Source: Thermococcus camini (GTDB lineage: Archaea; Methanobacteriota_B; Thermococci; Thermococcales; Thermococcaceae). From it: a stretch of DNA of 64,000 nt. Of this stretch, positions 1 to 62,273 are shown piece after piece. The notes beneath the pieces were generated by a model. The model had not been told where the DNA came from. It did not search any database and was given only the letters and a program-made list of their open reading frames with translations. The stretch is from assembly GCF_904067545.1 (NCBI RefSeq), contig NZ_LR881183.1, positions 686,277 through 750,276 of the forward strand, written 5' to 3'. A program made the position numbers and the translations under genes. Every line of letters begins with the position of its first letter. Positions within the stretch are counted from its first letter, which is position 1.

Positions 1-1017
1 AGAGGTTGGATGCTGATAATGTTTGCTTTCCTCCTGGCCGCCCTCGACCCGGAAAGACTTCTCCTTGAGCCTCTGGGCCTTTCCCTTGTATCTTCGGTGT
101 CCTTTGTGCTGGATATGATAAACACTGCGTTCCAGGGCGTCCTCCTGATACTAGCCGCGGACTATCTTGCCCCTTCAAACCCGTCCCTCAAGAACTCCCT
201 ACTCTCCCTTGGGGTGGGGGTGCTGGCGTACCTCTGGATAGTTATTACCAACGTGAGCACCGTGGAGGTAAGCTTCTTCCTGAAGAGCTTCGGACCAATG
301 ATGGGTTACGCTGCGGGTTATATCTACATGGGTCTTCTGCTCTACAGGTATGTAATCACCAGGAGGCCAGGACAAATTCTCTTCCCCGCAGGAATGATCC
401 TCTTGGGTTTCCTGAACGCCACGTACCCGGTAACTGCCACGTGGCAATGGTTCATTCCCTACGGGTTCTGGCTGGGCACCATATTCAGGATTATGATGGC
501 CATCGGCGCACTGAGCTTCGTCCTCTGGCCGTTTGTTTCCCCTGACTCGGACGACGGTCATGAAGTCCCAGGAGGGGCTTTTATGTATCCCAGCCGGTCC
601 GCGGCGATGAGGGCTCTGGGAGATTTTGAGAAAATACCCAGTATGGTCCTAATAACCCGAAGAGACGTTAATTCGCTCGAAGACGGGTTGCACCCGAATG
701 CCATCGTGTTTTGGATGACGAGAGTGGCTGAAGGGGAGCTTTCGGATTCACCCAGGGTGTACGCCATAAGCCCGACTAAGATAGATATCCTGACCGATTT
801 TATAGCCGGGGCCCTGGATAGGGGGTATGCTGTGGTTGTCGTAGAGGCTGTGGAATACCTGATTGTTGAGAATGGGTTCGAGAGTGCGTTCAAATTCCTT
901 TTGAACATAAAGGACAGAGTGCTGCTCCGGGGAGGCACTATGGCACTTATCGTTGACCCTGCATCACTGGAGAAGCAGCAGTTGAAAACTCTCGAAAGAG
1001 AATTTAAAATGGAGTGA
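1..1017 (+). CDS. DUF835 domain membrane protein, probably cut by the left edge
   Basis: The reading frame is open to base 1. The first internal ATG is at 10, but DUF835 membrane proteins usually have more N-terminal sequence, so the true start probably lies outside the window. About five hydrophobic segments fill the first ~175 visible residues. A soluble domain of ~150 residues follows, with the DUF835 pattern: a hydrophobic strand (SMVLITRR), an acidic helix and a conserved VVVVEAVEYL core. The family is abundant in Thermococcales and has no settled biochemical role; a sensory or membrane-signalling role is only a guess. It converges on the CBS-domain gene, with 2 bp between the two stops. 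Confidence 0.8.
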   Translation, partial: RGWMLIMFAFLLAALDPERLLLEPLGLSLVSSVSFVLDMINTAFQGVLLILAADYLAPSNPSLKNSLLSLGVGVLAYLWIVITNVSTVEVSFFLKSFGPMMGYAAGYIYMGLLLYRYVITRRPGQILFPAGMILLGFLNATYPVTATWQWFIPYGFWLGTIFRIMMAIGALSFVLWPFVSPDSDDGHEVPGGAFMYPSRSAAMRALGDFEKIPSMVLITRRDVNSLEDGLHPNAIVFWMTRVAEGELSDSPRVYAISPTKIDILTDFIAGALDRGYAVVVVEAVEYLIVENGFESAFKFLLNIKDRVLLRGGTMALIVDPASLEKQQLKTLEREFKME

Positions 1018-1019
1018 AA

Positions 1020-2195
1020 TCACTCCAGTCCCAATTTTTCTATGAACCTCTTGTAGTACCGGGTGTCGTGCTCCAGCTCGGCCTTCTGGAGCAGCTGCCG
1101 CTCGATGGCCCGCAGGGCGTCGTGGACTGCCTGTATTGCACCCCACGTTTCTCCCGTAGCCACGAAGACCCCTCTGTCGGTGACGACACGCATCCTTGCC
1201 TGGTACAGGTGCACGCCGCGGAACTTCTCGTTGAAGCGCCTTATGTAGAGGTAGATTATGCCCTCTTGGCCCAGTAGATCCTCGTAGCCATCGACGAAGC
1301 GCCTGACATCCTCTATGATGCGTTCCCTTGTGAAGTCGCTGAGTATCTCGGCGTCGCCTCCAAGCTGGAGGTAGAAGCGGACCTCCTTCTCCACCATCCT
1401 CGATATTGGCAGGAGCAGGTCCTTTACAGTCAGGACACCCGCAACCTTGTTGTTATCATCGACGATGATGAGGCCGTCTATGTCGTTCTCCATCATCGTC
1501 GCCACTGCCTCCTTGACCCTGGCCTCCGGCTTTGCCGTTATGACGCCCCTTATCATGACGTCGCGGAGCTGCATGCTGAATGGGGGAATCTTCTCACCCG
1601 CCACCTCGCCGTACTGGGACTTGAAGCGGGGTTTGATGAACCTTATGATGAGGTCGTGGAGGGTTACGAGCCCCTCGAGCTTTCCGGCTTCGTTTACTAT
1701 CGGGATCCTCGATATCGCGTGGTCGCGCATGGTTGCCAGGGCCTTGGCAACGGTGTCGTCCGGTTTCAGGGTTATAACGTCCTTGGTCATGAACTCCTCC
1801 GTCTTCTTCTTTCCGAACTCTCCCTCGGCGACCCTCTTGAGAAGCTCTATGTCGCTTATAACTCCAATGATTTCAGCCTTGCTCTCCCCAACCGGGAGGG
1901 AACGGAGGTCAACCTCCATCATGAGCTTGGCAGCCTTGCTAAGGTCCTCATCCGGCTTGATGACCGGTGCGGTTTTGTACACGTCCCTAACCTTGGCCTT
2001 GGTTGGGTCCCACTTGAGGTGGGAGCGTATAATAAGGTCCTGCGTCAGAACTCCTTTGTACAGGTTTCCGTCGAAGACCAGAATAAGGTCGGGGTCTTCC
2101 TTCTCAAAAATTCCGATCGCCTCAGAAAGCGGGGCGGCGATGTCGATTTTCTGGAACCTGTCGGTCATAACTTCCTGCACAAGAATACCGACCAT
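1020..2195 (-). CDS. Four-CBS-domain protein with HPF/RaiA-like C-terminal domain
   Basis: Start chosen at the ATG at 2195, preceded by GGAGGTGACAGC; a longer frame to 2249 lacks such a site. The 391-residue product begins with four CBS repeats (about 5-60, 70-125, 130-185 and 205-260), which normally bind adenine nucleotides. The last ~125 residues differ: a strand-rich part followed by a helix ending in AIQAVHDALRAIERQL. That closely follows the end of the bacterial ribosome-hibernation domain HPF/RaiA (a xxAIDxAVDKLERQL pattern). I infer a nucleotide-sensing ribosome dormancy factor. The CBS assignment is secure; the HPF-like call rests on pattern recognition. It is transcribed divergently from the tRNA gene. 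Confidence 0.85.
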   Translation of the reverse strand: MVGILVQEVMTDRFQKIDIAAPLSEAIGIFEKEDPDLILVFDGNLYKGVLTQDLIIRSHLKWDPTKAKVRDVYKTAPVIKPDEDLSKAAKLMMEVDLRSLPVGESKAEIIGVISDIELLKRVAEGEFGKKKTEEFMTKDVITLKPDDTVAKALATMRDHAISRIPIVNEAGKLEGLVTLHDLIIRFIKPRFKSQYGEVAGEKIPPFSMQLRDVMIRGVITAKPEARVKEAVATMMENDIDGLIIVDDNNKVAGVLTVKDLLLPISRMVEKEVRFYLQLGGDAEILSDFTRERIIEDVRRFVDGYEDLLGQEGIIYLYIRRFNEKFRGVHLYQARMRVVTDRGVFVATGETWGAIQAVHDALRAIERQLLQKAELEHDTRYYKRFIEKLGLE

Positions 2196-2291
2196 GCTGT
2201 CACCTCCTTCGTAATATACTAGGGCACCGGTCAATTTAAACCTTTTCAACAGAGTTTTAGTAACTTTTTGTTAATAAATTTTTCGCGGAAA

Positions 2292-2325: not shown

Positions 2326-2411
2326 GCCGGGGTAGCCTAGCCTGGGAAGGCGCTGGACTCGAGATCCAGTGGGCTCTGCCCACCAGGGTTCAAATCCCTG
2401 CCCCGGCGCCA
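2326..2411 (+). tRNA. tRNA-Ser (anticodon CGA), CCA encoded
   Basis: The 7-bp acceptor stem pairs GCCGGGG (2326-2332) with CCCCGGC (2401-2407). The discriminator at 2408 is G, as in serine tRNAs, and CCA is encoded at 2409-2411. The anticodon stem pairs CTGGA (2353-2357) with TCCAG (2365-2369), and the loop CTCGAGA gives anticodon CGA at 2360-2362, which reads UCG. A long variable arm (GGGC paired with GCCC) marks a class II tRNA. The T arm is CAGGG-TTCAAAT-CCCTG. I see no intron. Confidence 0.97.
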
Positions 2412-5145: not shown

Positions 5146-6002
5146 ACGTAATCCGTGTTGAGGACCTCCGCTTCAAATACCGTCGGGCGGAGAGGTATTC
5201 CCTGAAGGACATCAGCTTCACGGTAAAGCGGGGAGAGCTCCTCGGGATAATCGGCCCAAGCGGGAGCGGAAAGTCCACCCTCTGCCTCACCCTCAACGGA
5301 ATAATTCCCAACTCTATAAAGGGGGAGTTCGAGGGCGAGGTGGTTATTACCGACCCAAGGACTGGGGAGGAGTACAACACGAAGGAAACCCCCGTCCCAA
5401 CTCTTTCCACGATCGTTGGCCTCGTCCTCCAGAACCCCGAGAGCCAGCTCTTCAACATGACCGTGGAGGAGGAGATAGCCTTCGGTCTGGAGAACCTGGG
5501 GCTTGAGCGGAATGAGATACTCAGAAGGCTGCGGTGGGCCCTTGAGGTCACCGGCCTGAGGGGTCTTGAAAAGGAGTTCCCGCCGAACCTGAGCGGCGGT
5601 CAGCAGCAGAGGCTCGCCATAGCTGCTGTTCTTGCGATGGAACCGTCAATAATAGTTCTCGACGAGCCGACGAGCCAGCTTGACCCCGTGGGAAAGCAGG
5701 AGGTTCTGGGCCTTGTGTCGCTTCTCAACAGGGAGCACGGTATAACCGTCGTCCTCGTGGAGCACCATACCGACTACATCCTACGCTACGCCGACAGGGT
5801 TATAGTCATGGACCGCGGGGAGATAGTCCTCCAGGGGGCCCCTAAGGAGGTCGCGGAAGAGGCGGATACCCTCAGAAGGCTTGGGGTGAAGCTGCCGCCG
5901 GCCCTTGAGGTCTCCCACGAGCTGAAGAAAAGGGGCGTGCTCGGTGAGACGGTCCTCACTCCTGAGGAACTCCTTTCCAGGATAGGACGTCCCTCACGTT
6001 GA
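5142..6002 (+). CDS. ECF-type ABC transporter ATPase without its transporter
   Basis: The 286-residue nucleotide-binding subunit is most like the EcfA/CbiO energizing ATPases of vitamin and metal importers. It is complete: Walker A GPSGSGKST at 38-46, Q-loop Q96, signature LSGGQQQ at 149-155, Walker B IIVLDEP at 169-175 and H-loop H207. The ATG lies inside the trkH stop (ATGA). No EcfT, no substrate-binding S component and no second ATPase are nearby. It may serve an ECF complex encoded elsewhere, or be tied to TrkH. Its 3' end overlaps the convergent TPR-like gene by 47 bp. Confidence 0.9.
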   Translation: MNVIRVEDLRFKYRRAERYSLKDISFTVKRGELLGIIGPSGSGKSTLCLTLNGIIPNSIKGEFEGEVVITDPRTGEEYNTKETPVPTLSTIVGLVLQNPESQLFNMTVEEEIAFGLENLGLERNEILRRLRWALEVTGLRGLEKEFPPNLSGGQQQRLAIAAVLAMEPSIIVLDEPTSQLDPVGKQEVLGLVSLLNREHGITVVLVEHHTDYILRYADRVIVMDRGEIVLQGAPKEVAEEADTLRRLGVKLPPALEVSHELKKRGVLGETVLTPEELLSRIGRPSR

Positions 6003-6783
6003 AGCTCTCCCCCAAAAGACTGTGTTTGAGGTCGTAAAGCTTCAGCATGAGCTCGAACCTCGCGTCGGAGGATTCAACCTTTTCGGCCTCTTCAAAAGCC
6101 GCTTCAAGAAGGCGGAGGGCCTTTTCCCGGTCCCGCTCTCCCTCAACGGACGCCATGTAGTAGAGTGCCATAGCCCTCTGGAATGGGTTGGATATGTGCT
6201 TAACTATCAACGCCGCTCTCTTTTCGTCACCCGCGAGGTAGAAGCTCTCCGCAAGATTGACCAGAACGACGTCAATGGTTTCCTGATTCTTCGCCATCTT
6301 GATGGCGTAGCCTGCCTTCGCCAAAAGCCCTCTCTTCACAAGCCCCATAATGATATCCCGCACTATATCGGCATCGTCCCCTGCGAGGTTTATTGCCGTC
6401 TTCAGTGCTAGATCTCCATTGAGCTCGTCGTCTAGCCGGTAAAACAGAACCGCCAGGTCTGAGAGAAGGATGGCACGATAGCGCTTGGTGAACAGGCCGT
6501 TCACGGCGGGAATCAGGCTCCGGACCCTCTCCTTTATCCCCCCTATTTCATTGTCTGTGAGGGCACCCCTCCTCTCGGCCTCGTCGAGCGTTTCGACTAT
6601 GGCGCGTACTATCATCCTGAGGGCGAGGAAGAGGTTGTGTTCCTTTTTAATCTCGGGGAGCCTTGCGATAGCCTCGTCTATCCCGCCCTCATGGAGGTAC
6701 GCTTCTATCTCCTCCAGAATTTCAAGTTCGGGGCGTTTCTTCTCCCCTCCAAGGGATTTAAAGAACTCATCAAGCTTCCCCAT
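5956..6783 (-). CDS. TPR-like all-helical protein of unknown function
   Basis: The 275-residue soluble protein is predicted almost wholly helical. From about residue 100 it has repeated helical pairs with the small-residue spacing of tetratricopeptide repeats (LSDLAVLFYRL, LVNLAESFYLAGDEKRA, ALYYMASVEGERDREKA). Such repeats bind partner proteins; no catalytic motif is visible. The start ATG at 6783 follows AAGGAGGTG. It is the last gene of a tight operon with the CYTH, archaemetzincin and HepT-like genes, suggesting co-regulation but not a specific role. I do not recognise a named family. Confidence 0.75.
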   Translation of the reverse strand: MGKLDEFFKSLGGEKKRPELEILEEIEAYLHEGGIDEAIARLPEIKKEHNLFLALRMIVRAIVETLDEAERRGALTDNEIGGIKERVRSLIPAVNGLFTKRYRAILLSDLAVLFYRLDDELNGDLALKTAINLAGDDADIVRDIIMGLVKRGLLAKAGYAIKMAKNQETIDVVLVNLAESFYLAGDEKRAALIVKHISNPFQRAMALYYMASVEGERDREKALRLLEAAFEEAEKVESSDARFELMLKLYDLKHSLLGESFNVRDVLSWKGVPQE

Positions 6784-60545: not shown

Positions 60546-62273
60546 TCAGTCTATGTACATTCCCTCCAGGCCGCGGTAGTAGGCGCGGTATATGTCCCTT
60601 TTGGTCACAACACCAATGAGTTTTGGGTCCTCCTCTGAGCGAACCACGGGGAGCAAGTTTAGGTCGTACTCCATAAGCTTTTCAAAGGCATCCTCCGCTG
60701 TCTCTGTTGGGTATGTGACTGTGAAGGGCCTTGATTTCAGGAACCTCTCGACCCTGATTCTCTTCAGCGAAGTCGGCTTTTTCAGGATGTCCTTTATTCC
60801 CACAACTCCGATTACATTCATATCGTCATCGACAACGGGGAAGCAGTCGTGGGCGGTCTCGCTTATGAGGTGCTCAACATCGAGAAGCGTCGCGTCTTTG
60901 TGGACGTAAACCGGCTCCCTCGTCATTATTTCCCCGACGGAGATGGTCTCGAGTATGACCGGTTTGCCCGTCGTTACATGGTAGCCCTTTCTGATGAGCT
61001 TGAGGGTGTAGATGGACTCCCCCTTGAGGAAGAACCTGGCCGTTAGGAAGCCTATGGTCGCGGAGGTCATCACCGCGGGCAGAACGGCGTAGCTCCTCGT
61101 CAGCTCCGTGACCATGAGTATCTGGGTTAGCGGTGCCTGGGTCATGCCGCTGAAAAAGGCCGCCATTCCGGCCAGGGCATAGACGGCCGGGTTTGCGTCG
61201 AGAGCTGGGAGGAGAGTTTTTACAATCTCCCCAAAGGCGGCCCCAAACATGGTTCCGATGTAGAGGCTCGGGGCAAAAACTCCACCGCTCTGACCGGAGC
61301 CGATAGTCAGAGCAGTGGCGAGCATCTTAACCAGTCCGAGGACGATGAGAAGCCCTATCGCCAGCTCTCCGTAGAAGGCCATCCTCATGCCCTCGTAGCC
61401 TATCCCGAATATTCCGTAGATGGGAAACAGCATTCCAAGAACGCCGACTCCGAAGCCGCCCATCGCGGGTTTTATGACTTCGGGCACGTTGGCCTTCGAG
61501 AACCCATCAACTACACGGTAGAGGAACCGCGCGTAGAATGCCGCCAGGAGGCCGAGGCTTAACCCAAGGAGAAAGAACAGGGGAAGCTCTGGAAGCGTGT
61601 GCCCGATGTTACCGGGTATCTCTATCTCGACGGCCTTTTTAAGAACCGCCAGGGTTACCGCGTTGCCCGTTACGGCCGCTATGAATATCGGAACAAGGTT
61701 TATCGAAAAAGCTCCCATATAGACGACCTCAAGGGCGAACATCGCCCCCGCGAGCGGGGTGTTGAAGGTGCCGGCTATACCTGCTGCCAGACCGCAGGTG
61801 ACCAGGAGCTTTTTCATTTCCTTTGAGAGATTGAACCGGCGCGCGAGGATGGAGGTCAGAGAAGCCCCGATGAATCCTATCGGTCCCTCACGTCCCACGC
61901 TGCCGCCGGAGCCTATGGTTATCGCCGTGGCTATAGTCTTCAGAACCGCGAACTTTCCGGGGATGTTGCCGCCCTTGAATATGACGGCCTCTATGACCTC
62001 CGGGATGCCGTTCCCCTTAATCTCGGGACACTTGATGACAAAGAGCGTGACCACCAACGCGCCGAGCGTTGGCAGGAGTATGCAACCGATATTAAAGCTT
62101 CCCACCTCGTAGGAAACCCGGGGGAGAAGCCACTCGAAGAAAAACCTGTGAACCACTCCTATGAATACCCTAAAGACTATCGCCCCCAAACCGCCCACCA
62201 GGCCGGCCAGAATGGAGAAGGCCATTACTATGCCCCATTTCCTGAGGTACGCCCCGTCTCCTGAGGTCATCAA
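60546..62273 (-). CDS. ClC-family chloride channel/transporter with two CBS domains
   Basis: The 575-residue protein has a ClC membrane domain (about 1-440) and two CBS domains (about 455-575) for nucleotide regulation. Anion motifs: GNGIPE (normally GSGIPE), GREGP with the gating Glu E129, and GSGQSGGVFAPSL. The position of the ClC-ec1 proton glutamate (E203) is Val in FALEVV, as in channels. Start ATG 62273 or 62270. A TATA box at about 62290-62300 leaves hardly any leader, so it may be leaderless. EndoQ follows. Confidence 0.93.
   Translation of the reverse strand: MMTSGDGAYLRKWGIVMAFSILAGLVGGLGAIVFRVFIGVVHRFFFEWLLPRVSYEVGSFNIGCILLPTLGALVVTLFVIKCPEIKGNGIPEVIEAVIFKGGNIPGKFAVLKTIATAITIGSGGSVGREGPIGFIGASLTSILARRFNLSKEMKKLLVTCGLAAGIAGTFNTPLAGAMFALEVVYMGAFSINLVPIFIAAVTGNAVTLAVLKKAVEIEIPGNIGHTLPELPLFFLLGLSLGLLAAFYARFLYRVVDGFSKANVPEVIKPAMGGFGVGVLGMLFPIYGIFGIGYEGMRMAFYGELAIGLLIVLGLVKMLATALTIGSGQSGGVFAPSLYIGTMFGAAFGEIVKTLLPALDANPAVYALAGMAAFFSGMTQAPLTQILMVTELTRSYAVLPAVMTSATIGFLTARFFLKGESIYTLKLIRKGYHVTTGKPVILETISVGEIMTREPVYVHKDATLLDVEHLISETAHDCFPVVDDDMNVIGVVGIKDILKKPTSLKRIRVERFLKSRPFTVTYPTETAEDAFEKLMEYDLNLLPVVRSEEDPKLIGVVTKRDIYRAYYRGLEGMYID

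Follow-up and report, generated by a model that had tools for sequence, protein, structure and literature searches.

A CBS protein of Thermococcus camini that is almost certainly an orthologue of the ribosome hibernation factor HibA

Introduction

What is the function of the CBS protein encoded at positions 1020-2195 of the window, the whole stretch of 64,000 nucleotides of Thermococcus camini DNA analyzed here? An original prediction, made by eye, took it for a ribosome dormancy factor. Such a family is already known: HibA was described in PMC13324472 (Nat Commun, April 2026) as a protein that joins four CBS domains to an HPF/RaiA domain, the latter bearing two archaeal insertions. According to this report, HibA is widespread, being present in 47% of archaeal genomes, and was found by cryo-EM in three conformations on 70S ribosomes of stressed Pyrococcus abyssi (structures PDB 9SR9-9SRF and 9T7H). 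P. abyssi HibA inhibits translation in vitro, and deletion of hibA in T. barophilus doubled the lag and lowered 70S by about 60% (PMC13324472). Between them, the proteins of these two species were thus shown to bind 70S and 30S and to preserve 70S ribosomes in stationary phase.

Results

The source genome is a single contig of 2.02 Mb and is 99.8% complete. Upon translation, the ORF at 1020-2195 (minus strand) runs from an ATG at 2195 to a stop at 1020-1022 and yields a product of 391 aa. The start codon is supported by the Shine-Dalgarno sequence GGAGGTGA and by an N-terminus that is identical in ~50 relatives. The features of the locus are the following:

1020-2195, minus strand: hibA, encoding a 391-aa CBS4-HPF/RaiA protein, assigned as the orthologue of P. 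abyssi HibA (UniProt Q9UYR4) by phmmer and identity
1389-2195, minus strand: CBS module with four CBS domains, residues 1-269 (Pfam PF00571; limits taken from PMC13324472)
1575-1628, minus strand: PTC loop, residues 190-207, RFKSQYGEVAGEKIPPFS, 16/18 identical to P. abyssi HibA
1023-1388, minus strand: predicted HPF/RaiA-fold domain, residues 270-391 (AF2 model, Foldseek, identity to P. abyssi HibA)
2200-2207, minus strand: Shine-Dalgarno sequence, 8 nt, kept in relatives
2233-2248, minus strand: inferred BRE/TATA element around AAAAGGTTTAAATTG (footprint of upstream regions)
2256-2278, minus strand: 23-bp near-palindrome TTTATTAACAAAAAGTTACTAAA, putative Phr-like operator (promoter conservation, genome search)
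2326-2411, plus strand: tRNA-Ser(CGA), a divergent neighbour and not a conserved partner (comparison with relatives)

The gene is convergent with one (10-1017, plus strand) whose product is a membrane protein carrying DUF835 at its C-terminus. Two other ORFs of the window, both on the minus strand, were recorded: a 275-aa ORF at 5956-6783, alpha-helical and repeat-like by eye, has no Pfam match at E 0.001, and a second CBS protein at 60546-62273, a membrane protein, reads by eye as a ClC-type chloride channel with two CBS domains after it.

The CBS family was matched in four stretches (E 3.7e-43), and residues 270-391 (~122 residues) lie C-terminal to the four CBS domains, in line with the original prediction of four such domains and a tail of about 125 residues. 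The tail is present in a single copy in the genome. Pfam scans gave no match to the HPF family in this C-terminal domain at E up to 10; weak matches to Hrs_helical, DUF7075 and malic in the Pfam and NCBIfam scans fell below the cut-off and were rejected. An AF2 model of the tail, built from 14 Thermococcales sequences, reached a pLDDT of 87.5 and a pTM of 0.76. It contains, in tail numbering, a strand (10-16), a short helix (17-20), a helix (23-39), a second short helix (41-44), three strands (48-61, 64-75 and 78-87) and a last helix (89-123), so that the predicted secondary structure has the HPF order plus two additional short helices. When this model was compared by Foldseek with PDB entries up to 2026-04-08, ranks 1-32 were all HPF, RaiA, protein Y or PSRP1 chains (probability score 1.00, best E 2.2e-6), with aligned identities of 8-23% for the top matches, and the first unrelated chain was a dsRBD at rank 33 (E 6.5e-3). 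As the entries end on 2026-04-08 and no HibA was among the matches listed, this test of the fold is independent of HibA.

A chance helix pattern on another alpha-beta fold, for instance a dsRBD-like one, would agree with the silence of Pfam on HPF and with the dsRBDs found from rank 33 down, but every higher rank is held by an HPF/RaiA chain and the solved orthologue shows the HPF/RaiA topology (PMC13324472), which already refutes this explanation and leaves it practically no credence. The C-terminal domain is thus predicted to have the HPF/RaiA fold, and the resemblance of the tail to HPF/RaiA is at the level of the fold, beyond sequence profiles. The earlier reader had seen by eye a likeness that profile search misses: the segment AIQAVHDALRAIERQL (residues 353-368), in which the end of the tail was read as HPF/RaiA, maps to the final helix of the domain as predicted, and structure prediction of the tail, which had been named as the check, returned HPF/RaiA and not another fold.

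In a phmmer search of PDB sequences, the 391-aa protein matched chain H of 9sr9 over its full length (E 3.8e-214); 9SR9 is HibA-ATP according to the data statement of PMC13324472. The protein is 83.1% identical to P. abyssi HibA over 390 residues, with 88.9% identity (16/18) in the PTC loop (residues 190-207), located between CBS3 and CBS4, and 86.8% in the C-terminal domain (270-390). Another chain of solved structure, 9l96_a ("CBS domain-containing protein"), was also matched, again over both the CBS module and the tail. In the PDB, chain H of 9sr9 is entered as "Dehydrogenase", a label by which automatic annotation could be led astray. On the strength of the 83% full-length identity, the conserved PTC loop and the modelled domain fold, the gene at 1020-2195 is almost certainly hibA and would encode, by orthology, an archaeal ribosome hibernation factor. 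The proposal of a ribosome dormancy factor is borne out to the extent that the P. abyssi and T. barophilus proteins, through cryo-EM, in vitro translation and the knockout, speak for their orthologue (PMC13324472).

The protein could instead be a CBS regulator of another process, acting in transcription like HhpR or as a sensor like AMPK gamma, with a tail that does not bind ribosomes. Taken by itself, the CBS module has a fold similar to those of AMPK gamma, MJ1225 and further CBS proteins; the NCBIfam HhpR model matches the CBS part with 66.6 bits; and pulldowns cited in PMC13324472 recovered TK1186/Pab0961 together with proteins of replication and recombination. However, the HhpR score is far under the 520-bit NCBIfam cut-off, the tail has the HPF/RaiA fold in the model and the orthologue was seen on ribosomes by cryo-EM (PMC13324472), and we consider such a regulator very improbable. 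By fold, the full-length AF2 model matches the ribosome-bound CBS proteins Sri of Methanosarcina and Dri of Pyrobaculum as well as AMPK gamma; the model has a pLDDT of 82.3, and its inter-domain arrangement is weak (pTM 0.59, linker pLDDT <50).

The distribution of HibA was surveyed in 115 genomes of the phylum. Among the Thermococcaceae genomes with a completeness of 90% or more, all have a full-length orthologue (77-98% identity), and the genomes of this family without one are all <90% complete. Since the orthologues are 74-98% identical throughout the Thermococcaceae, the combination of CBS domains and tail is not due to chance. Full-length relatives with 31-34% identity are present in 3/4 genomes of a second family, and three more families gave CBS matches only, at the sensitivity used.

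The original prediction also held that the CBS domains could sense adenine nucleotides. The GxxTxxD-type residues G175/D181 in CBS3 and G253/T256/D259 in CBS4 are invariant even at 32-34% identity; in distant relatives the CBS1 motif is not retained, in contrast to the CBS3/CBS4 motif residues and a PTC loop of the same length. In P. abyssi HibA the AMP/ATP site sits between CBS3 and CBS4 (PMC13324472), and conservation of CBS3/CBS4 without CBS1 fits this published site. On its own, the P. abyssi CBS module has the highest affinity for AMP, followed by ADP and then ATP (12, 65 and 113 uM, respectively), but neither AMP nor ATP clearly altered ribosome binding by HibA, and the conformational landscape was largely unchanged (PMC13324472). 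The adenylate claim therefore stands for binding, in the P. abyssi protein, and not for a clear effect on the ribosome. A dual role, in which HibA would serve in hibernation and also join an adenylate-dependent partner in replication or recombination that keeps it off ribosomes at high energy, was proposed in PMC13324472 from the pulldowns and the order of nucleotide affinities. The conserved CBS3/CBS4 motif residues of T. camini HibA accord with it, and the largely unchanged ribosome binding with AMP and ATP speaks against it; we hold it to be rather unlikely.

Upstream of the gene, a footprint was derived from 48 upstream regions (45 from Thermococcaceae and three from the distant family). 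The motif GTTTAA is found 46 nt before the hibA ATG, at about -42 to -50 in relatives, and the near-palindrome at 2256-2278 lies 14 bp upstream of it. Within 2 mismatches, the palindrome is present in 41/45 Thermococcaceae promoters compared to 2/960 mononucleotide-shuffled upstream regions, a comparison that overstates the surprise as the pattern was derived from the same promoters and the sequences are related. The hibA copy is the sole perfect match in the 2.02 Mb genome; the next best, with one mismatch, is directly before an Hsp20 gene. A tRNA promoter was considered and rejected: the palindrome is 48-70 bp upstream of the tRNA and is kept in four relatives whose hibA has no tRNA gene next to it. 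The tRNA gene itself had been pointed out as a neighbour, and it is indeed there, as tRNA-Ser(CGA) on the opposite strand; it is adjacent to hibA in many Thermococcus and absent or distant in others, so that a functional tie, or a partnership, is not retained.

PMC13324472, citing Vierke 2003, places hibA under the heat-shock repressor Phr, and in P. furiosus Phr is known to act on the HSP20 promoter (PMC10746257); no description of the upstream palindrome was found in the accessible part of PMC13324472. Because of the match before hsp20 and the reported control of both hibA and HSP20 by Phr, the palindrome at 2256-2278 is probably the Phr site of hibA, a putative assignment from sequence. Transcription of hibA is probably controlled by stress through this conserved element. 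The palindrome is upstream of the TATA element at hibA and downstream of it at hsp20. It is conceivable, though we would give it only tentative credit, that hibA is switched by a regulator sitting on the palindrome upstream of BRE/TATA, in an activator-type arrangement, in contrast to the repressor-type operator of hsp20. If this were true and Phr bound both sites, it could repress one gene and activate the other, and hibernation would be tied to the heat-shock switch.

Discussion

For the window, the value of these results lies in a correct annotation where a general Pfam scan gives just "CBS domain", and the upstream palindrome offers a concrete handle on how hibA is turned on. The same ribosome role is inferred for T. 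camini HibA from its P. abyssi and T. barophilus orthologues: the C-terminal domain would plug the mRNA/tRNA channel of the 30S subunit, the CBS module would sit in vacant sites of the 50S subunit, and idle 70S ribosomes would stay intact through stress until growth restarts. HibA couples a bacterial-type ribosome plug with an AMP-binding module.

Several known systems can be set beside the T. camini protein. Bacterial HPF/RaiA proteins (YfiA, protein Y) and chloroplast PSRP1 share the predicted C-terminal fold and, unlike HibA, are without a CBS module. Dri of Pyrobaculum calidifontis and Sri of Methanosarcina (PDB 9E7F, 9ZNF) place CBS modules on archaeal ribosomes and match the CBS part in fold, and their positions on the ribosome differ from those of HibA (PMC13324472); in Dri there are eight CBS domains in two modules, without an HPF domain, whereas the T. 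camini protein has four CBS domains and a predicted HPF fold. HVO_2384 of the halophile Haloferax volcanii, noted in October 2025 to combine tandem CBS domains with a C-terminal hibernation-factor domain, co-purifies with a Pat2 variant, and its ribosome role is only inferred there (PMC12607858); its architecture is alike by description only. Closest are HibA of P. abyssi (Q9UYR4) and T. barophilus (F0LKU5), which are of equal length and have the same four CBS domains, HPF/RaiA domain and PTC loop; the T. camini copy, known from sequence, differs from them by species only.
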